64,000 nucleotides of DNA from Streptomyces sp. NBC_01314 (GTDB taxonomy: Bacteria > Actinomycetota > Actinomycetes > Streptomycetales > Streptomycetaceae). The DNA lies in NCBI RefSeq assembly GCF_041435215.1, contig NZ_CP108394.1, positions 744,001 through 808,000 of the forward strand, read 5' to 3'. The notes below the pieces were generated by a model. That model was not told the DNA's origin, searched no databases, and saw nothing but the letters and a program-made list of their open reading frames with translations. Position numbers and translations under genes: made by a program. Shown one piece after another: positions 1 through 30,988 of this stretch; the stretch's first letter is position 1, and the number at the start of each line of letters is the position of its first letter.

Positions 1-1587
<1,587 letters not shown>

Positions 1588-1591
<4 letters not shown>

Positions 1592-2355
1592 GGGTGGGTG
1601 TGGGCCATGGCGCCGGTGACCTCCGGGTGCGCGTGGGTGTGGCCGTGGTCGTGGTCGTGGTCGTGGAGCCGGCGGGCCATGACCGGCGCGTGGACGGGTA
1701 CGCCGTCCGCGGCCGCCATCGCCCTGTCGAGCAGAGCGCCGACCCCCCGCCCCAGGCGTGCCGAGGTCAGGATCACCTCGACTCCCGGATTGACCTGCTG
1801 CACGTTCGCGCGGAACGCGACCTCGTCGAACTCGACGGCCGCCGCGATGTCGGTCTTGGTGACCACGACCAGCTGGGCGAGGCCGAAGGCGGTGGGGTAC
1901 TTGAGCGGCTTGTCCTCGCCCTCCGTCACGGAGGCGAGGACGACCCTCAGCGTCTCCCCCAGGTCGTAGGAGGCAGGGCAGACGAGGTTGCCGACGTTCT
2001 CCACGAACAGCAGCCGGGTACCGTCGGGCAGCCATCCGTCCAGGTGCCCGGCGAGCATTCCCGCCTCCAGATGACACAGCCCGTCGGTGAGCACCTGCTT
2101 GACCGGGACGCCCGAACGCGCCAGACGTACCGCGTCGTTCTCGGTGGCGAGATCGGCGCTCAGCGCCGCTACGGGAACGGACCGCTCGCGTGCCCGCAGC
2201 AGTTCCTGCTCCAGCAGCGCGGTCTTGCCGCTGCCCGGACTGGACAGCAGATTGACGACCGCGGTGCCTCGCGCCGTGAGGGCGGCGCGCAGTTGGTGGG
2301 CGCTCGCGTCGTTCTTCGCGAGTACGGCCTGGCGCAGGTCGGCGACACGGCACAT
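1588..2355 (-). CDS. hypB: HypB, GTPase for nickel insertion
   Basis: HypB is a cytoplasmic GTPase that works with HypA to load nickel into the hydrogenase large subunit. 255 residues. Seen: Walker [15 protein letters not shown] (near residue 37), Mg-binding and switch region [12 protein letters not shown], the metal-site [28 protein letters not shown], and the guanine-specificity motif VVTKTDI. The odd point is the tail: a histidine-rich stretch ([13 protein letters not shown]) sits at the C-terminus, whereas the nickel-storage His-rich region of many HypB proteins is N-terminal. It starts 3 nt after the hypA stop and its own stop overlaps hypF. Confidence 0.95.
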
Positions 2356-2358
2356 GGT

Positions 2359-2757
2359 TCAGCGCTCCTCGGAGATCGGTTCGCGGGTGGGCGCGTGCGC
2401 GGAGCCGCCGTCCTCCCAGCGCACGTCGACGATCTGCAGTTCCCGGCCCGCGAGCAGGTCGGTACGCGTCCCCCCGCACGCCGGGCAGGTCAGCCGGGGC
2501 GGCATGCCGACGGCCCATTCGTGTGCGCAGGGGGTGCAGCGGGCCCGTCCCGGCACCGCTTCGGTGAGCAGTTCGGCGCCTTCCAGCAGGGTTCCGGCGC
2601 AGGCCAGTTCGAAGGAGAAGGCGAGCGCGTCGGGTACGACACCGGCGAGTTCGCCCACCTGGAGCCGTACCGAACGCACTGCCGTGATGCCCCCGGCCCG
2701 GTCGGCGGCCTCCGCGACCTGGTCGACGACGGCCAGCGCGACGGACATCTCATGCAT
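2359..2757 (-). CDS. hypA: HypA, nickel metallochaperone
   Basis: HypA hands nickel to the large subunit together with HypB. 132 residues, slightly longer than the usual ~115. Seen: the N-terminal MHEMSVA with the conserved nickel-binding His2, the [11 protein letters not shown] region, and a zinc site made of two C-x2-C pairs (CTPC and CPAC, near residues 75 and 91). The RBS GGAG lies about 8 nt upstream of the ATG. The gene follows a 146-nt gap after the small membrane peptide and is tightly followed by hypB, so hypA-hypB-hypF form one block. Confidence 0.93.
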
Positions 2758-2903: not shown

Positions 2904-3008
2904 TCACATCCGTCGGATCCGCAGGTAGCGCCTGATGTCCGGCAGCACCTCGGCGGCCACGGCGACCAGGGCGGCCACGGCCGCTCCACCGATGACGATC
3001 TTCTTCAT
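2904..3008 (-). CDS. 34-residue membrane peptide, DUF6893-like
   Basis: A 34-residue ORF: MKKIVIGG, an Ala/Val-rich hydrophobic segment of about 13 residues, VLPDIRRYLR and a basic end IRRM. A good RBS (AGGAGAG) sits 5-11 nt before the ATG, and the start is 11 nt downstream of the protease stop on the same strand. It looks like one membrane segment with a basic C-terminal tail. It resembles the small DUF6893-type proteins that I recall from actinobacterial hydrogenase loci; that match is from memory. The function is unknown. Its place in the operon suggests a membrane tether or maturation factor, which is inference. Confidence 0.7.
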   Translation of the reverse strand: MKKIVIGGAAVAALVAVAAEVLPDIRRYLRIRRM

Positions 3009-3019
3009 CCCGTCTCTCC

Positions 3020-3565
3020 TCATGTCGAAGCCTCAGCGGTTGAGGCCTGCACCACGGACGGCTCACCGTTCCGCAGCAGCTCTTCGATCAGCCGGACCGC
3101 CTCCGGTACCGCGTCGGACACCGGCGTGCTGAGGCCGATGCGCTCGTCCACCGAGGCCGGTTCGCATCCGACGACCAGGACGCGGCGTGGCGGCTCACCG
3201 CCGGTCCCGGCGCACAGAGTGCCCAGCAGCGCCAGAACCGTGTCGGGGGTCATCCGGTGGCCGTCCAGGGCGGGGGCGCCCGGCGACGGGTTCGGGCGGT
3301 CGACGTCGTGTTCGATGACGTACAGCGTGCCGGGGGCTTCGCCGCGTGCCGTGGCGTCCACGAGGACGAGGGTGTCGTAGCCGTCCAGAAGCTGATACGC
3401 GAGGTGCACGCCACGCACCCCGATGTCCACGACCTCGACGTGTCCGGGCAGGTCGCGCTCGGCGAGCCGGCGTGCGGTCTCCACACCGAAGCCGTCGTCG
3501 CCGAGGAAGATGTTGCCGATGCCGGCGACGAGAGTCCTGGAGCCCGGCTGCGCAGGGGGGTTCAT
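3020..3565 (-). CDS. Hydrogenase maturation endopeptidase, M52 (HyaD/HycI) family
   Basis: Nickel-dependent endopeptidase expected to cut the C-terminal extension of the large subunit after metal insertion. 181 residues. Seen: GIGNIFLGDDGFGVE near the N-terminus with the metal-binding Asp/Glu, the VVDIGVRGVHLAYQLLDGYDTLVLVDA core with the second acidic ligand, and GHRMTPD with a possible His ligand. This is the usual M52 layout and size. Its ATG overlaps the stop of the preceding 476-residue gene (ATGA), so the two are translationally coupled. The matching substrate, a large subunit with 23 residues after DPCLPCGVH, lies in the same operon. Confidence 0.9.
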   Translation of the reverse strand: MNPPAQPGSRTLVAGIGNIFLGDDGFGVETARRLAERDLPGHVEVVDIGVRGVHLAYQLLDGYDTLVLVDATARGEAPGTLYVIEHDVDRPNPSPGAPALDGHRMTPDTVLALLGTLCAGTGGEPPRRVLVVGCEPASVDERIGLSTPVSDAVPEAVRLIEELLRNGEPSVVQASTAEAST

Positions 3566-4992
3566 ACGCCGCCCTCCAGCGGTGTGACCTCGTCGGGCTG
3601 GAAGTACAGGAAGCGCCCCTGCTCGCGGCGGATGTCGGCGCCCGGGTCGCCCTCCACGGTGACCGCCAGGTGCACCCCGCCGTCGACGTCGTGCAGTACC
3701 GCCTCAACTGTGGCGGTGCGGCCCCGCAGGAAGATGTCCTGCGCGTCGGTGCGCCGAAGGCCCGGGTGCAGCTCGACGCGGCTTCCCCGGCCCACCGGCC
3801 GTCCGTCCACGACCACACGGTCCTGCGCCGGGTCGAAGCCCGCGTCGCTCGCGGGGTCCCACCAGGGCGTGTCGGGCCGGCCCACCCCGTACTCGTCGGG
3901 GAAGCCGTCGGTCGGGGCGGCCGGGCCGGGGCGGGTCACCTCGCGCAGGCTCCGTACCGCTCCGTGCAGCCGCTCCAGCACCTCGGCCGGCATCGAGTCC
4001 GCCAGCTCGATCACGGCGGCCGCCCGTTCGTCGGTGCCGCGGGCCTCGCGTTTCTCCTCGTCGGTGAGAGCCGCGGTGCGCAGCGCGAGGATCTCGTCGA
4101 TCTCCGTGGCGTCGTAGAGCGCGCCGGGGCTCTCCGGGGCGATGGCCGGATGGTCCTCCAGGATGATCGGCGAGGACAGCACGAGGTCGGCACGGCCGGG
4201 TTCACCGGCGAGTACGGGCCAGGTGTGCAGGTTGCGGCAGGCGGCGACCGCGCCCTTCGCCCACTCGGGGGGATCGGTCATCGACAGGAACGATCCGGCG
4301 CTGAGGGCCATCAGGAGGTGGGTGGCCACCAGGGAGTGCGGCAGTGCCGCTTCCCGGTCGGCGCCGTGTCCCTCGGGCGGTGTCCAGTCGCTGGTGTTCT
4401 CGACGACTGCGGTCAGCCGCAGGGTCCGGTAGGGACCGTCGAGTTCGCGGGCGGACAGCCGGACCGTCCCGCTGATCTCCTCGCGCCGCCGGAGCAGTCG
4501 GCCGACGGTACGGCCGGCCGCGTCCAGGACGGGTGCGGTGTCCTCCCGGGCCGGGAGCCGGAAGGCATGGGTGACGCCGTCGCCGAGGAGTTCGTCCACC
4601 GGCGCGATCACCTCCACACGTTCCTCGATCCCCTCGTCCCAGGGCACCAGCACCCGGTCGTCGAGGTCGAGTTCGGCGACGGTGTCGAAGCCGCCGTCCG
4701 GGCGGACCCGCTGCACCGTGCGCCGCCGGGCGTGCAGGAAGCGCACCTCGACCGAGAGGGTCGCGCCCGTTCTCGGTTCCATCAGGCATTCGGTGTGCTG
4801 GAAGTCGTGCTCCTCGCACTCGGCGCCCCAGGCGGGCGGCACGAGCACCCCGAACTGCCAGCGCAGCCGGTTCTTGGCCGCCGAGGCGCGGTACGGGTAG
4901 AGCACATAGCCCTCGAAGAGGACGGCGTCGGCCACCTGCCGGGCGAGGGCGAACCGCTCCTCGGTCTCGGCGGCGAACGCGGTGACGGTCAC
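3562..4992 (-). CDS. Conserved hydrogenase-operon protein of unknown function, 476 aa
   Basis: No family recognised. The open frame extends much further upstream (to about 6174), but the true start is taken as GTG 4992 because it overlaps the stop of the DUF6084-like gene (GTGA) and the upstream part is out-of-frame shadow. The protein opens VTVTAFAAETEERFALARQV, has no signal peptide or membrane segment, and is rich in acidic residues and Arg. It contains an HDFQHTEC stretch and ends in an immunoglobulin-like or ferredoxin-clamp-like section (GVGRPDTPWWDPASDAGF, then VAVTVEGDP-type strands). It sits between the DUF6084-like gene and the protease in a chain with no intergenic space, so it is probably a dedicated assembly or electron-transfer partner. 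This is inference. Confidence 0.8.
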   Translation of the reverse strand: MTVTAFAAETEERFALARQVADAVLFEGYVLYPYRASAAKNRLRWQFGVLVPPAWGAECEEHDFQHTECLMEPRTGATLSVEVRFLHARRRTVQRVRPDGGFDTVAELDLDDRVLVPWDEGIEERVEVIAPVDELLGDGVTHAFRLPAREDTAPVLDAAGRTVGRLLRRREEISGTVRLSARELDGPYRTLRLTAVVENTSDWTPPEGHGADREAALPHSLVATHLLMALSAGSFLSMTDPPEWAKGAVAACRNLHTWPVLAGEPGRADLVLSSPIILEDHPAIAPESPGALYDATEIDEILALRTAALTDEEKREARGTDERAAAVIELADSMPAEVLERLHGAVRSLREVTRPGPAAPTDGFPDEYGVGRPDTPWWDPASDAGFDPAQDRVVVDGRPVGRGSRVELHPGLRRTDAQDIFLRGRTATVEAVLHDVDGGVHLAVTVEGDPGADIRREQGRFLYFQPDEVTPLEGGV

Positions 4993-5681
4993 GGGTCGGT
5001 CCTTCCGGTGGTGCCGGTGAGCGCGCGGAACGGGTCGCTCGCGGGCGGGTCGGCGGCGGCGCTTGCGTCGAGCAGGGCCTTGAGGGTGGCTTCCCAGGAG
5101 GGCAGCGCGCGTCGGGAGCGGTAGGCGAGGAGGGCGTCCATGGTGTCGCGGGGCAGCCGGATCCAGCCGCAGCCGGGGAAGTGCTGCTCGACCATCTCCC
5201 GCCAGGCGGCGACCGGCATCCGGAACGCCGCCTCCCGGTCCCACGGGACCGGTTCGATCCGGAAGCCGGCGTCGCCGGTGAACGCCGTACCGGAGAAGAG
5301 CATCAGCAAGGGGACCTCGCCCTCGGTGAGGGCGTTGAGGTAGCGGGTGGCGGCGATCTCCATGTCGTAGGTGCAGGGCACGACGAGGTCGGTCTCGATC
5401 TCCCCGGTGAAGCTCGGAACCATCACCGAGACCTGGGCGAACTGCACGGGCTGGAGACTGCTGCCCCAGCGTGAGCGCTCGCCGAAGAGGTCCGCCAGCC
5501 CTTCGGCCTCGGCGGGCTCGTAGCCGCGTCGGGCGGGTTCGATGCGGATCTGGCAGCGCAGCGCGAGTGCGTGCACGCGCGCGTTGTCGGCGGCGGTGAC
5601 GCGCAGCCGGAAGACGAGGGTCGGTCCGGCGGCGTACCGGTCGGCGCGGACGCCGGTGCAGGCGAAGGAGAACTCCGTCAT
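4989..5681 (-). CDS. DUF6084-like hydrogenase-associated protein
   Basis: 230 residues with no signal peptide. Opens MTEFSFACTGVRADRYAAGP, then ALRCQIRIEPARRGYEPAEAEGL, DLFGERSRWGSSLQPVQFAQV, VPSFTGEIETDLVVPCTYD and a C-terminal PRDTMDALLAYRSRRALPSWE. This matches my memory of the DUF6084 family, which is found in high-affinity hydrogenase operons; no activity is known. The strand-rich, repetitive look suggests a beta-sandwich. Its start overlaps the DUF5947-like stop and its stop overlaps the next gene (GTGA). A role in assembly or regulation of the hydrogenase is inferred only from position. Confidence 0.75.
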   Translation of the reverse strand: MTEFSFACTGVRADRYAAGPTLVFRLRVTAADNARVHALALRCQIRIEPARRGYEPAEAEGLADLFGERSRWGSSLQPVQFAQVSVMVPSFTGEIETDLVVPCTYDMEIAATRYLNALTEGEVPLLMLFSGTAFTGDAGFRIEPVPWDREAAFRMPVAAWREMVEQHFPGCGWIRLPRDTMDALLAYRSRRALPSWEATLKALLDASAAADPPASDPFRALTGTTGRTDP

Positions 5682-6349
5682 GGCCGCACCGCCTCGTCCG
5701 ACGGGCGCGACGAATCGTCCGACGCGCCCCCCGGATCGTCAACGGGCCGGGCGCGGCGCGCGACCTCCGCGAAGAACACGTCCAGGGCAGCGCGTGCCTC
5801 GGCTCCGCCGTCGAAGCCCTGCCACAACAGGCGCATGCGGCCGACGAGTTCGTAGCAGATGTCGATCGGTACGAGGTGGGTCTCGCAGCGTCCGCCGGTG
5901 CGGCGCAGCAGCAGCGCCTCCACGTCGGGTTCGAGGAGTTCGGCCAGGCGGTTGCCGCCGAGGACGGCCGTCCAGGTGGCCGGTTCGAGTTCGCTCTCGG
6001 TGGCTCCGGCCGGGCTCGGGTAGAGGGCGACCAGCCGGTCGAGCGCGGCGTTGCGGAAGAGGAAGGCGACGCCGACCGGGATCTGCAACGCCTCCCACGC
6101 GCTGTCGTCGAGGCGGTGTCCGGGGTCGGTGAGGTAGCGGGCCGGGACCGTGCGGAAGCGGCCCGCGGCGGCACCCGGCTGTTCCATCAGCAGAGCGCAG
6201 GGGACGCAGGCACAGACGAGGGCGCGTTTCTCGGTGTCGACCAGGTGGCGGTGGTCCTCGGGCACCGCCACCGCGCACAGCTCGCACCGCTCCGGCCGCG
6301 GCGGACGTTCTGTCAGGAACCTTCTCAGACCGGCGGTGGCCGCGGTCAT
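5678..6349 (-). CDS. DUF5947-like cysteine-motif protein of the hydrogenase operon
   Basis: 223 residues. The ATG at 6349 was chosen because it overlaps the NifU-like stop (ATGA); the frame is open further upstream but without coding character. Near residue 18 lies a Cys cluster, RCELCAVAVPEDHRHL, followed by ALVCACVPCALLM, giving C-x2-C and C-x-C-x2-C with a His between them: a likely zinc site or Fe-S site. The rest has alternating helices and strands (LLEPDVEALLLRR, IDICYELVGRMRLLW). I recall this as DUF5947. With the adjacent NifU-like protein it may handle Fe-S clusters for the hydrogenase; that is inference. Confidence 0.75.
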   Translation of the reverse strand: MTAATAGLRRFLTERPPRPERCELCAVAVPEDHRHLVDTEKRALVCACVPCALLMEQPGAAAGRFRTVPARYLTDPGHRLDDSAWEALQIPVGVAFLFRNAALDRLVALYPSPAGATESELEPATWTAVLGGNRLAELLEPDVEALLLRRTGGRCETHLVPIDICYELVGRMRLLWQGFDGGAEARAALDVFFAEVARRARPVDDPGGASDDSSRPSDEAVRP

Positions 6350-6879
6350 CGGGCCCCCGTCGGTGCCGTGCTGATCTGGAGGAGCGTGGGCCCGGCGGGG
6401 GTGGTCTGCACGTCGACGGCCCTGACCTCGGGTGCGAAGCAGGCGAGCGCCGCCTCGGCGGCCTGCCGGGCGTCCGCGCCGGAGCCGCAACCGCACCCGC
6501 CACCCGCCCGGGCGCGCACCCGCAGCGTGCCGCTCCGCTCGTCGAAGTCCACGACCTCCAGGGTGTGTTCGCGGACGCTGTCGAGAGCGCGGACGATGCG
6601 GGTGTCGCGGTCCTCGGGGTGCAGGTCGTGCAGGACGAGCAGGCTCGCGACGAGTTCGTCGGCGAGCAGTCCCGCCGACGGTTCGCCGGGCGCGGAGGAC
6701 AGCAGTTGGAGGATACGGGCCAGGCCGGCACCGTAGAAGTCCATGAGGGAGCGGACGAGTTCCTCCGCCGCCGTGGCTGCGGCCGGGTCGCCGCTCGTGG
6801 CCAGTCGGTCCAGCACCTCCTCGACACGGCGTCCGGTCTGCTCGGCGTCGACGGGCCGGGCCGTCGTCGGCGCGCTCAT
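6346..6879 (-). CDS. NifU-like Fe-S protein of the hydrogenase operon
   Basis: 177 residues. The N-terminal half is helical (RRVEEVLDRLATSG, EELVRSLMDFYGAGLARIL). The C-terminal half looks like a NifU C-terminal domain, but the usual C-x2-C is embedded in a Gly-rich GGGCGCGSGADARQ near residue 130. It could bind an Fe-S cluster for delivery or act as an electron carrier for the hydrogenase. The start overlaps the large-subunit stop (ATGA), so its output is tied to that of the large subunit. NifU-like genes next to group 1h hydrogenases are a known pattern; which role it plays here is open. Confidence 0.82.
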   Translation of the reverse strand: MSAPTTARPVDAEQTGRRVEEVLDRLATSGDPAAATAAEELVRSLMDFYGAGLARILQLLSSAPGEPSAGLLADELVASLLVLHDLHPEDRDTRIVRALDSVREHTLEVVDFDERSGTLRVRARAGGGCGCGSGADARQAAEAALACFAPEVRAVDVQTTPAGPTLLQISTAPTGAR

Positions 6880-8660
6880 CCGCCCAGTCCGCTCAGGCCG
6901 GTGGGCACGTGCATCGACTTCACTGTCTTGCCGCCGCCGACGTACATGTGGACACCGCAGGGCAGACAGGGGTCGAAGCTGCGGACCGCGCGCATGATGT
7001 CGATGCCCTTGAAGTTCTCCGGGGTGTTCTCCTCGAAGATGGGCGTGTTCTGTACGGCGTCCTCGTACGGGCCGGGGGTGCCGAAGCTGTCCCTGGTGCT
7101 GGCGTTCCAGGGCGTGGGCGGGTACGGGTGGTAGTTGGCGATCTTGCCGTCGCGGATCACCATGTGGTGGGAGAGGACACCGCGGACCGCCTCGGTGAAG
7201 CCGACGCCGATGCTCTCGTCAGGAACCTCGAACTTCTCCCAGGTCTGAGTGCGTCCGGCGCGGACCTCCGCCAGGCCCTTCTCCGCGCAGTGCAGGGCGA
7301 CGGCGGCGGCGTACGCCTGGAAGTAGGTGCGGGCGCGGTTGCGTTCCAGCGCGTTGGACCACTGCGGGATCTTCCACTCGAAGGTGGTCTCCGGCTTGGT
7401 CATCGTGCGGGGCAGGTTGATGACCACGCTGTGGCCGGTGGCCTTGACGTACCCGATGTCGACGAGCCCGGACAGGGCGGTGGACCACAGGCGGGCGATG
7501 GGGCCGCCGCCGGTGTCCAGGGCGAGGTGGTCCTTGCCGTCGAACCAGCGGGGTGACATGACCCAGCTGTACTTGTCGTCGAAGTTCCGCTTCTGGGGGG
7601 CGGGGATGGTGTGCTGGTTCCACGGGTGGCGCGGGTCCACCGGGTTGCCGAGCGGGTCGTGGGTCACGAACTGCTCCTGGCCCTGCCAGTCCTCGTAGTA
7701 GGAGCTGCCCAGCAGGATGCGGATGCCGAGGTTGATCTCGGTGAGGTCGTTGGTGACGAGTTTGCCGTCGACGACGATGCCCGGGGTGACGAACATCTTC
7801 CGTCCCCAGTCGGTCATGTTGGCGTAGGTGAAGTCGCAGTACTCGGGGTCGTTGAGCGCGCCCCAGCAGCCGAGCATGACCCGGCGGCGGCCCACCTCCT
7901 CGTACCCGGGCAGGGCCTCGTAGAAGAAGTCGAACAGGTCGTCGTGCAGGGGCACGACGCGCTTCATGAACTCCACGTACCGCATCAGGCGGCTCATGTA
8001 GTCCGTGAAGAGCTGCACGGAGGCGATGGTGCCGACGCCGCCCGGGTAGAGCGTGGAGGGGTGCACATGGCGACCCTCCATCAGGCAGAACATCTCGCGG
8101 GTGTAGCGGCTGACCTGGAGGGCCTCGCGGTAGAACTCGCCCTCCAGGGGGTTCAGCGAGCGCATGATGTCGGCGATGGTGCGGTAACCGTGCTCGGCGG
8201 CGTGCGGGGCCTCGGTCCGCTCGGCGAGTTCGAGGACGCCGGGGTTGGTCTCCTTGACCATCTTCTCGCAGTAGTCGACCCCCACCAGGTTCTCCTGGAA
8301 GATGTTGTGGTCGAACATGTACTCCGCCGACTCGCCGAGGTTGATGATCCACTCGCCGAGGTGCGGGGGCTTCACTCCGTACGCCATGTTCTGCGCGTAC
8401 ACCGAGCAGGTGGCGTGGTTGTCGCCGCAGATGCCGCAGATGCGGCTGGTGATGAAGTGGGCGTCGCGGGGGTCCTTGCCGCGCATGAAGACGCTGTAGC
8501 CGCGGAAGACCGACGACGTGCTGTAGCACTCCGCGACCCGCTTCTGCTTGAAGTCGATCTTCGTGTGGATGCCCAGGCTGCCCACGATCCGGGTGATCGG
8601 GTCCCAGGCCATCTCCACCAGGCCACTGCCGTCGCCGGCCGTCTTCGTCTTCGGTGCCAT
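6876..8660 (-). CDS. hhyL: [NiFe] hydrogenase large subunit, group 1h
   Basis: Catalytic subunit that oxidises H2 at a NiFe(CN)2CO site. 594 residues. Both metal-binding motifs are intact: RICGICGDNH (Cys75, Cys78) and DPCLPCGVH (Cys565, Cys568, ending at His571). 23 residues follow His571 and should be removed by the M52 protease encoded in the operon. Long insertions and the motif context (SSVFRGYSVFMRGKDPRDAH) fit the high-affinity actinobacterial group 1h (formerly group 5) enzymes that scavenge atmospheric H2. It follows the small-subunit gene after a 120-nt spacer. A weak RBS (GAAGGG) lies about 12 nt upstream of the ATG. Confidence 0.96.
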   Translation of the reverse strand: MAPKTKTAGDGSGLVEMAWDPITRIVGSLGIHTKIDFKQKRVAECYSTSSVFRGYSVFMRGKDPRDAHFITSRICGICGDNHATCSVYAQNMAYGVKPPHLGEWIINLGESAEYMFDHNIFQENLVGVDYCEKMVKETNPGVLELAERTEAPHAAEHGYRTIADIMRSLNPLEGEFYREALQVSRYTREMFCLMEGRHVHPSTLYPGGVGTIASVQLFTDYMSRLMRYVEFMKRVVPLHDDLFDFFYEALPGYEEVGRRRVMLGCWGALNDPEYCDFTYANMTDWGRKMFVTPGIVVDGKLVTNDLTEINLGIRILLGSSYYEDWQGQEQFVTHDPLGNPVDPRHPWNQHTIPAPQKRNFDDKYSWVMSPRWFDGKDHLALDTGGGPIARLWSTALSGLVDIGYVKATGHSVVINLPRTMTKPETTFEWKIPQWSNALERNRARTYFQAYAAAVALHCAEKGLAEVRAGRTQTWEKFEVPDESIGVGFTEAVRGVLSHHMVIRDGKIANYHPYPPTPWNASTRDSFGTPGPYEDAVQNTPIFEENTPENFKGIDIMRAVRSFDPCLPCGVHMYVGGGKTVKSMHVPTGLSGLGG

Positions 8661-8780: not shown

Positions 8781-9869
8781 TCACCACGGGGGCCGGTATC
8801 CGGTGGTGATCTTGTCTCCGGTACGGCGCCACTTGGGCTCCTTGTCCACCGTCTTGGCGGTGATCGACCGCAGCCTGCGGACGACGGCGCCGTACGCCCC
8901 GCTGGCGTTGCTGGAGAGCTTGGCGCCGGGGGGCTCGTCCATGAACGGCATGAACTTGTCGGGGAACCCGGGCATGGTGCAGGCGATGCAGATGCCGCCG
9001 ACGTTGGGGCAGCCGCCGATCCCGTTCATCCAGCCGCGCTTGGGCACATTGCACTTGACGACCGGGCCCCAGCAGCCGAGCTTGACCAGGCAGGTCGGCG
9101 AGTCGTACGACAGGGCGAACTGGCCCTGTTCGTAGTAGCCCGCGCGGTCGCAGCCCTCGTGCACGGTGGCCCCGAAGAGCCAGGTGGGACGCAGCTTGTC
9201 GTCCAGCGGGATCATCGGGGCGGAGCCGGCCGCCTGGTAGAGCAGGTAGGTGAGCGTCTCGGAGAAGTTGTCGGGCTGGATGGGACAGCCCGGGACGCAC
9301 ACGATGGGGATGCCTGCGTGGGACTTCCAGTCCCAGCCGAGGTAGTCCGGCACACCCATCGCACCGGTCGGGTTGCCCGCCATGGCGTGGATGCCGCCGT
9401 AGGTGGCGCACGTACCGATGGCGACGACCGCCAGCGCCTTCGGGGCGAGCCGGTCGATCCACTCGCTGGTGGTGATCGGCTGGCCGGTCTCCGGGTTGTC
9501 GCCGAAGCCGCACCAGTAGCCCTCGGGCTTGATCGACTCGTTGGGGATGGAGCCCTCGACGACCAGGACGAACGGATCGATCTCGCCCCGTTCCCCCTTG
9601 AAGAACCACTCGATGAACGTGTCCGAGCCGCCGACGGGCCCGCACTCGAAGTCGATGAGCGGCCAGTGGACGGCGATCTTCGGAAGGCCGGGCAGCACAC
9701 CGAGCACGATCTCCTCGATGCTGGGCTGCATGGCCGCCGTCAACGCGACCGAGTCACCGTCGCAGCTCAGGCCCGCGTTGATCCAGAGAATGTGGATCGT
9801 GGGTGTCTCGTCGGCGGGCGCGCCGCCTGCGTTCGCGGCATCGACTGTTCCCGGCGTCGCCTCAGTCAT
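8781..9869 (-). CDS. hhyS: [NiFe] hydrogenase small subunit, group 1h, Asp-type proximal cluster
   Basis: Electron-transfer subunit carrying three Fe-S clusters. 362 residues, no Tat signal peptide, so the enzyme should mature inside the cell. The first cluster motif reads LSCDGDS (Cys36, Asp39) in place of the usual C-T-G-C, and further ligands are seen in IGTCATYGG, CVPGCPIQP, VHEGCDRAGYYEQG, LGCWGPVVKCN and GGICIACTMPGF. Replacement of one proximal-cluster Cys by Asp is a reported feature of group 1h enzymes and is linked to oxygen insensitivity. A strong RBS (AGGAGG) lies 8 nt before the ATG. It is the first structural gene of the operon, after the hypX-side gap. Confidence 0.96.
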   Translation of the reverse strand: MTEATPGTVDAANAGGAPADETPTIHILWINAGLSCDGDSVALTAAMQPSIEEIVLGVLPGLPKIAVHWPLIDFECGPVGGSDTFIEWFFKGERGEIDPFVLVVEGSIPNESIKPEGYWCGFGDNPETGQPITTSEWIDRLAPKALAVVAIGTCATYGGIHAMAGNPTGAMGVPDYLGWDWKSHAGIPIVCVPGCPIQPDNFSETLTYLLYQAAGSAPMIPLDDKLRPTWLFGATVHEGCDRAGYYEQGQFALSYDSPTCLVKLGCWGPVVKCNVPKRGWMNGIGGCPNVGGICIACTMPGFPDKFMPFMDEPPGAKLSSNASGAYGAVVRRLRSITAKTVDKEPKWRRTGDKITTGYRPPW

Positions 9870-30158: not shown

Positions 30159-30988
30159 GGTTTGTCCTCGACGACCGTGTTGACGCACTCCCCGATGCCC
30201 TCCACCACGGTCCGTACGAGCTGACCGGGTTTCAGGAACACCTTGGGATCGCGGGCCGCGCCGACCCCGCCCGGTGTACCGGTGAGGACGAGGTCGCCCG
30301 GCTCCAGTGTCGTGAACGTGCTGAGGTACGCGGCGATGTCCGCCGGGGTGAAGAGCAGGTCGGACGTGCGCGAGCGCTGCATGACCTCGCCGTCCACCTC
30401 AAGGCGGATCTCCAGGTCGGCCGCGTCGTCGATCTCGTCCCCCGTCACCAGCCAGGGGCCGGCCGGGGTGCTGGCCTCCCACGCCTTGCCCTGCAACCAC
30501 TGCGGGGTACGCCACTGCCAGTCCCGCATGGAGATGTCGTTGACGACGGTGTAGCCGGCGATCGCGGCCGCAGCCTCCTCCTTGGTGGCCCGACGGCGCA
30601 GCCGGGAGCCGATGACGAAGCCGAGTTCGGCCTCCCAGTCCAGCTCCTCCGTCTCGCCCGGGTGAACGATGTCGTCGCGGGCGCCGAGCAGGACGTTGGC
30701 GAACTTGCCGAAGAGGGCCGGGTACGACGGCATCTCCCGGCCCATCTCCGCGATGTGGCCGCGGTAGTTGTGGCCCACGCAGAAGATCTTGGCCGGGGTG
30801 GTGACGACGGGAGCGAGGTCGAGTGCGGCCGTGTCGTGCGCCGGGCCGTCGGCGGCGGCCGCGTGAGCGCGCCAGTCGGGGCGGCGCAGCAGGGCGGCGA
30901 CGTCGGGGGCGCCGGTCTCCACGGCTCTGGCGCCGTCGAGGCGGACGGCCGCCGTGCCGGTGGCGGTGCGGATGGTGGCGAGCTTCAT
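30155..30988 (-). CDS. Fumarylpyruvate hydrolase (FAH family)
   Basis: Splits fumarylpyruvate to fumarate and pyruvate, the last step of the gentisate route. 277 residues. Seen: KIFCVGHNYRGHIAEMG, the metal-binding ELDWEAELGFVIGSRLRR, YTVVNDISMRDWQ, and LEPGDLVLTGTPGGVG near the C-terminus; these carry the usual Glu/Glu/Asp ligands. ATG 30988 was chosen for its overlap with the gentisate dioxygenase stop (ATGA); the frame is open upstream without coding character. Confidence 0.92.
   Translation of the reverse strand: MKLATIRTATGTAAVRLDGARAVETGAPDVAALLRRPDWRAHAAAADGPAHDTAALDLAPVVTTPAKIFCVGHNYRGHIAEMGREMPSYPALFGKFANVLLGARDDIVHPGETEELDWEAELGFVIGSRLRRRATKEEAAAAIAGYTVVNDISMRDWQWRTPQWLQGKAWEASTPAGPWLVTGDEIDDAADLEIRLEVDGEVMQRSRTSDLLFTPADIAAYLSTFTTLEPGDLVLTGTPGGVGAARDPKVFLKPGQLVRTVVEGIGECVNTVVEDKP

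Follow-up and report, generated by a model that had tools for sequence, protein, structure and literature searches.

A 64,000-nucleotide (nt) stretch of the 11.3-Mb genome of Streptomyces sp. NBC_01314 (the window; G000:C1:744001-808000) carries a hydrogenase cluster in which hhyS and hhyL, encoding the small and large subunits of a group 1h [NiFe]-hydrogenase, are followed by genes for a NifU-like (HhyE-like) protein, a DUF5947 protein, a DUF6084 protein, a 476-residue protein, and a maturation protease. We found that the 476-residue protein, DUF5947, and DUF6084 track group 1h hhyL almost perfectly across 198 actinobacterial genomes, and that a DUF6893 micropeptide encoded beside the protease is a sixth member of this block. 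We read the block as a kit dedicated to building the cytoplasmic HhySL enzyme and docking it at the membrane, with a probability of about 0.5; the functional assignments, the topology of the peptide, and its binding to HhySL are what we infer here. Besides the micropeptide, the loss of cysteines in HhyE-like proteins, set against the constancy of the DUF5947 ligands, and the two-domain make-up of the 476-residue protein are new.

The block follows group 1h hhyL

Our profile of 198 actinobacterial genomes, which is independent of the selection of loci on the 476-residue protein described below, counted a genome as hhyL positive when it held a match of at least 65% identity; 25 genomes did so (G107, G184, G028, and G087 through partial matches only). 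The 476-residue gene was present in 22 of these 25 genomes and in 1 of the 173 others, as was DUF5947, while DUF6084 was present in 21 of 25 and 1 of 173. Co-occurrence with hhyL gave Fisher p < 1e-22, to be taken as a guide only, the genomes being related. A reading of the window from sequence alone (the sequence-only reading) had proposed that these genes form one module specific to group 1h hydrogenases, and had named their wide occurrence without hhyL as what would count against it; the profile bears out the module, with a single genome outside the hhyL-positive set for each gene. Seven genomes had a best hydrogenase match of 41 to 45% identity and 8 had weaker matches; none of the three genes was found in any of them.

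The exceptions are few. In the outsider, G189, the block runs to the end of a contig, DUF5947 finishing at base 6,873 of 6,878, and in G042, which has hhyL and no match to the 476-residue protein or DUF5947, DUF6084 finishes at 30,820 of 30,824. Pieces of hhyL in G107:C7 and G184:C264 lie inside longer contigs with the block genes missing and are probably relics. A separate search turned up one real exception: a 476-residue homologue (49% identity) in G322 lies directly before a HypA gene (L142 16286-17915, G322:C49; Pfam E 9.9e-22), in a 99%-complete genome that lacks any PF00374 match; it may be either a relic or in other use.

In the window, all of the genes lie on the minus strand. The small subunit gene hhyS (8781..9869; PF14720 and PF01058) is separated by 120 nt from hhyL (6876..8660; PF00374), whose product carries SFDPCLPCGVH, the L2 motif conserved in group 1h/5 (PMC5364354). 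From there on, the genes for the HhyE-like protein (6346..6879), DUF5947 (5678..6349), DUF6084 (4989..5681), the 476-residue protein (3562..4992, GTG start), and the protease (3020..3565) are joined by 4-nt overlaps at five successive junctions (ATGA, ATGA, ATGA, GTGA, and ATGA), exactly the unbroken chain that had been described. These overlaps are not chance, because the same neighbors overlap in many other loci: hhyL and the NifU-like gene in 38 of 75, the NifU-like gene and DUF5947 in 52 of 79, DUF5947 and DUF6084 in 58 of 81, DUF6084 and the 476-residue gene in 55 of 83, and the latter and the protease in 37 of 85, with starts chosen automatically.

The comparison set comprised 86 loci: the best 80 of 553 confirmed genome-scan loci of the 476-residue family, the window, and five plasmid loci; counts within the genome-scan loci are thus conditional on the 476-residue gene, which selected them. 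Hidden Markov model (HMM) searches found the small subunit in 69 of the 86 loci, the large subunit in 77, the NifU-like protein in 79, DUF5947 in 83, DUF6084 in 84, the 476-residue protein in 86, and the protease in 85. The shortfall is largely due to short contigs; in all nine loci in which hhyL was not found, the first open reading frame (ORF) of the block starts ≤122 nt from a contig edge. Where both hhyS and hhyL were present (69 loci), so were the NifU-like protein (69), DUF5947 (69), DUF6084 (67), the 476-residue protein (69), and the protease (68). The block keeps its order across about ten phylum-level groups, and the identical order is annotated on plasmids of Cupriavidus necator (pHG1), Mycobacterium intracellulare, Methylocystis parvus, and Streptomyces fungicidicus.

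The block is not obligatory in hhy clusters, since a variant lacking DUF6084 exists. On a Streptomyces cattleyicolor plasmid (L008), DUF6084 has no match, and the 476-residue gene stands ahead of hhyS, adjoining an ORF with a hemerythrin domain; the clusters of G128 and G171 (L126 and L127) are like it in lacking DUF6084 and in the position of the 476-residue gene. Elsewhere, DUF6084 has no match in L061, where the hhySL genes are located apart, and the hhy block of L047 is split in two.

A DUF6893 micropeptide accompanies the protease

The sequence-only reading listed the genes from hhyL to the protease correctly and stopped one gene short, leaving out a conserved micropeptide. Eleven nucleotides after the protease stop codon lies a 34-codon ORF, MKKIVIGGAAVAALVAVAAEVLPDIRRYLRIRRM (2904..3008, minus strand), with AGGAG ahead of its ATG. 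Its hydrophobic product scores 53.1 bits against Pfam DUF6893 (PF21833; cutoff, 24.6); the peptides of C. necator (38.9 bits) and M. intracellulare (48.8 bits) also score above this cutoff. Four annotated plasmid records list no gene at this site, in a gene table that is incomplete by its own description.

We built a peptide HMM from 16 seeds found by pattern search in the 86 loci, refined it once on its own matches, and searched with it the end of each of 30,931 open frames from the 1.62 Mb of these loci, requiring E ≤1 and a match ending at a stop codon between 900 nt before and 800 nt after the protease end. Since its seeds came from the same loci, this model is not independent of them; the Pfam model is. 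Of the 86 loci, 79 had a match within this distance of the protease, together giving 85 peptides, of which 83 had E ≤0.01 and 72 had E ≤1e-6; the best E value on shuffled tails was 14. Only two matches fell elsewhere in the 1.62 Mb, one in the split cluster of L047 and one in L048 (E 0.37, ∼2.9 kb from the protease). Apart from these two, the loci not counted were L045, which has no protease, L071 and L075, which end at the protease, and L008 and L079, which had no match. Positive loci, in groups assigned manually, were Betaproteobacteria (10/10), Alphaproteobacteria (7/7), Chloroflexota (10/10), Acidobacteriota (4/5), Planctomycetota metagenome-assembled genomes (2/2), Eremiobacterota (2/3), Dormibacterota-like (3/3), Myxococcota (1/1), a further proteobacterial metagenome-assembled genome (1/1), and Actinomycetota (39/44).

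The peptide ends in a conserved C-terminal tail, with the consensus D-x-x-R-Y-[LIM]-[RK]-[IM]-R-x-Met-COOH: counting from the C terminus, Tyr at −7 is found in 85 of 85 peptides, Met at −1 in 84, Arg at −8 in 82, and Asp or Glu at −11 in 83. Between close copies, differences at the three codon positions numbered 453, 265, and 646 (63 pairs of 25 sequences), and codon differences comprised 419 synonymous and 602 nonsynonymous changes; these counts fit coding sequence, in what is a modest test. Maximum 17-residue hydropathy exceeded 1.6 in 91% of the 85 peptides, and mean charge was +2.9 on the C-terminal side versus +1.0 on the N-terminal side. By the positive-inside rule the more positive side of a membrane helix is cytoplasmic, so the charge distribution fits a cytoplasmic tail. 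By its hydropathy and its place beside the protease, the peptide has one feature of an anchor subunit, a hydrophobic helix whose gene belongs to the hydrogenase cluster; it is a direct candidate for the group 1h membrane anchor.

Among the 198 actinobacterial genomes, DUF6893 scored above the cutoff in 19: 16 of the 25 that are hhyL positive, G189, where the block is at a contig edge, and two others. In one of these, G150 (L183, G150:C1:2943000-2955000), a degraded hhy locus retains an hhyS fragment, the micropeptide, the protease, and a HypB gene; no hhyL was found in this stretch, and other [NiFe]-hydrogenase genes lie elsewhere in the genome. In G195, the micropeptide sits beside a protease and hyp genes, the latter recognized by eye, and the PF00374 gene is elsewhere. 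DUF6893 remained below the cutoff in the hhyL-positive genomes G042, G100, G103, G107, G124, G128, G171, G182, and G184, and our own HMM likewise had no match within the stretches retrieved for G100, G103, G124, G128, G171, and G182.

Position and copy number vary somewhat. The peptide gene lies just before the protease in L009 and L080. Two micropeptide genes lie near the protease in six nonstreptomycete loci (L031, L037, L039, L056, L066, and L084), and two in G140 (L192) are ∼0.8 kb apart; possibly, the membrane part in such cases is built of two different peptides. Extra DUF6893-type copies away from the block and protease occur in G189 (two) and G092 (one), at L187 6045-6143, L186 2134-2250, and L185 2208-2561, two of them with the tails QRYKQLRDM and QRYQQLRDM.

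HhyE-like protein, DUF5947, DUF6084, and the 476-residue protein

The 177-residue protein encoded directly after hhyL is HhyE-like by position and by family-level similarity to NifU: Pfam does not list its NifU model for the window protein even at E 1, but solved NifU/NFU structures are matched by a profile built from its relatives, with a best E of 8.6e-23. The NifU-like identity assigned from sequence therefore stands, and the guessable role attached to it does not follow: the window protein has CxC in place of the NifU-domain CxxC, with one aligned cysteine, and contains no CxxC at all, including the two further ones of the C-terminal extension, so that the label implies no guessable iron-sulfur (Fe-S) role here. 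In our alignment of 53 sequences (51 of 74 candidates plus two plasmid sequences), the NifU CxxC is complete in 24, reduced to one aligned cysteine in 19, and absent in 10. Three CxxC motifs occur in 12 (the long HhyE of L009 8476-9381 and its relatives), the rest being shorter or cysteine poor. An Fe-S relay in the NifU-like protein cannot be general because the CxxC is complete in only 24 of 53. Long and short or cysteine-poor forms alternate across phyla. Shorter HhyE proteins have been noted in some species (PMC6883350), and the NifU domain was undetectable in one methanotroph (PMC12319191).

DUF5947 is quite different in this respect. The 223-residue window protein (PF19372; E 1.1e-73; 247.1 bits, cutoff 25) has five cysteines and two histidines (C22, C25, H33, H35, C46, C48, and C51; codons 22 to 51 at 6197..6286, minus strand) that are invariant in 55 of 55 aligned sequences, taken from 78 candidates. 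Separating the often degenerate HhyE-like protein from DUF5947, with its invariant Cys/His set, tells experimenters which protein to purify first. The 230-residue DUF6084 protein matches PF19562 (E 9e-97; 323.2 bits, cutoff 25), and 63 of 78 candidates entered its alignment.

The 476-residue protein has two domains, which are split into two ORFs in 16 loci; the C-terminal domain (about residues 390 to 476; 3565..3825, minus strand) is SH3-like and corresponds to an ORF of its own there. The 476-residue protein has no significant Pfam match and no match to a helicase family at E 1. There is a tentative resemblance between its main domain and the N-terminal half of DrmA, the helicase of the DISARM defense system; the window protein itself matches DrmA (PDB 7s9v) weakly, at E 0.049, and a profile of 12 DrmA N termini gave no significant match. 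Whereas DrmA has tandem RecA helicase domains, the 476-residue protein has none. In its AlphaFold2 model, the segments of lowest confidence (residues 29 to 31 and 285 to 295) lie in or beside stretches that are strongly conserved in the family (alignment of 63 of 80 candidates), as would be expected of parts that become ordered on a partner.

A possible assembly and docking kit, and its alternatives

In the reading we favor, the HhyE-like, DUF5947, DUF6084, and 476-residue proteins would help to build and hold HhySL, and the protease would mature HhyL. The DUF6893 helix would sit in the inner membrane, with its C-terminal tail DxxRYxRIRxM-COOH docking the finished enzyme, and docking would let electrons reach menaquinone. 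A kit for assembly is supported by the co-occurrence with hhyL, by the recurrence of the block in about ten phylum-level groups, and by published hhyE mutants: in Mycobacterium smegmatis, hhyE is required for H2 consumption (Islam 2019, PMC6883350), and nitroblue tetrazolium as the electron acceptor does not restore activity in the mutants, a result that the authors also considered compatible with assembly or scaffold roles (PMC6883350). Also in favor of the reading are the cysteine loss in the HhyE-like family, the constant DUF5947 ligands, the low-confidence segments of the 476-residue model, and the place, tail, and hydropathy of the peptide. In its most specific form, the idea is tentative and in our judgment falls a little short of even odds: the peptide of ∼33 to 36 residues may hold the group 1h enzyme at the membrane, its free C terminus (RY-x-R-I-R-x-Met-COOH) plugging into the enzyme; the four other block proteins may assemble the enzyme onto the peptide, the 476-residue protein reusing a chassis domain shared with DrmA; and enzyme overproduced without the peptide, which easily goes unannotated, would then be soluble and of low affinity.

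Several observations weigh against this reading. Biochemical data were found for HhyE alone among these proteins. No peptide is detectable in the variant clusters L008, L126, and L127, in the Kribbella locus L079, or in the stretches fetched from the hhyL-positive genomes G100, G103, G124, and G182. C. necator has the peptide, yet Hyd-1h, the enzyme of this organism (Ralstonia eutropha), is cytoplasmic and of low affinity (PMC7174314), and the group 1h enzyme of Methylacidiphilum is membrane associated, with a published cluster lacking the four block genes. Both NifU cysteines are kept in 24 of the 53 HhyE sequences, and the two further CxxC motifs in 12 would fit electron transfer in those proteins. 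In G195 and G150, moreover, the peptide adjoins the protease and hyp genes without an intact hhyL, and its link could therefore be with maturation instead of the enzyme.

This last point leads to a peptide that partners the maturation protease or an assembly step, for example, by holding the immature large subunit at the membrane, and is not a subunit of the mature enzyme. The peptide does adjoin the protease, even in G150 and G195, which lack hhyL or have another type of hydrogenase, and it precedes the protease immediately in L009 and L080; but group 1h clusters without the peptide exist, including L008, which has its own protease, and the short transmembrane proteins encoded next to the structural genes in group 1l and 1m clusters are taken as parts of those systems. 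We consider such a role unlikely. Electron transfer has a slightly better claim, while still being doubtful to us: redox centers of the HhyE-like protein and, above all, of DUF5947 would pass electrons from HhyS to menaquinone, with the 476-residue protein and DUF6084 positioning the relay. The invariance of the seven DUF5947 ligands in 55 of 55 sequences speaks for this, as does the lack of a cytochrome b gene in the operon within the window stretch inspected, and Islam 2019 proposed HhyE and MSMEG_2717/PHG067 as acceptors from their shared operon, essentiality, Fe-S motifs, and comigration (PMC6883350); against it stands the cysteine loss in the HhyE-like family. That the genes merely travel together, as a frozen operon whose uncharacterized members have general functions, would suit the presence of the block on plasmids of several hosts and G322, with its 476-residue gene beside hypA and no PF00374 match, but the presence of each gene follows hhyL across the 198 genomes and hhyE is essential for activity; we regard it as highly improbable.

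Other genes of the operon

The maturation protease is of the HycI/TIGR00072 type (Pfam HycI, E 9.6e-15; TIGR00072, 119.2 bits, NCBIfam cutoff 47.45). Beyond the micropeptide, on the same strand, lie hypA (2359..2757; PF01155), hypB (1588..2355; PF02492 and sequence), and hypF (1..1591; translation inspected by eye), which is truncated by the window edge and whose start codon is not fixed.

Comparison with known systems

Bacteria with group 1h enzymes account for a large part of the H2 that is removed from the atmosphere. The Methylacidiphilum subunits have neither a transmembrane helix nor a signal peptide, although most activity is found in membranes, and membrane association seems essential for high affinity (PMC7174314); the parts of PMC7174314 and PMC13332983 drawn on name no anchor for a group 1h hydrogenase. 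The literature describes the route of such an enzyme to the membrane and the quinone pool as unexplained, a question that can be tested through a 105-base gene whose position in the operon is fixed. If our reading is true, the micropeptide would be the missing tie between the trace-H2 enzyme and the membrane, a tiny protein overlooked by annotation.

The block had been put forward as an undescribed system, which it is not: the same order is present on C. necator pHG1, its four unknown proteins are mentioned in papers, and an hhyE knockout of M. smegmatis is already on record as having lost activity. For these reasons we regard the block as already known but uncharacterized. Four coding sequences of unknown function have been noted by hhyL (PMC12319191), the hydrogenase genes of Streptomyces avermitilis form one monocistronic and two polycistronic units (PMC4767420), and the published Methylacidiphilum cluster comprises hhyS, hhyL, and hupD, its other accessory genes lying at a distance of 4.6 kb. 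Our literature search, whose reach excluded most subscription papers, including those on the C. necator group 5 enzyme, yielded no mention of DUF6893, no text combining "hydrogenase" with DUF5947, DUF6084, or DUF6893, and no description of a small membrane protein for group 1h.

The closest known system is the group 1h/5 cluster of C. necator pHG1 (H16_RS31840 to RS31870), which has the window's order of small subunit, large subunit, NifU-like protein, DUF5947, DUF6084, unknown protein, and protease. A 33-residue DUF6893 peptide, missing from the listed gene table, starts 34 nt after the protease. The cluster differs from that of the window in that its NifU-like protein has neither CxxC cysteine, its hyp genes are in another order, and its enzyme has been characterized in the literature as cytoplasmic, with low affinity. 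The M. intracellulare plasmid carries the same block as the window; its HhyE, however, has 301 residues and three CxxC motifs, compared with 177 residues and CxC only in the window, and its peptide sits between the 476-residue homologue and the protease. Among other high-affinity hydrogenases, HylTM1-5 of group 1l and two single-helix proteins of group 1m are, like the DUF6893 peptide, short proteins predicted to span the membrane, with genes inside the hydrogenase cluster (PMC9561532), so that finding a small membrane protein there is nothing new in kind. Compared by description, HylTM1-5 are encoded between the subunit genes and the group 1m proteins have 82 to 92 residues (PMC9561532), whereas the DUF6893 peptide has ∼34, is encoded beside the protease, and bears a C-terminal motif of its own.

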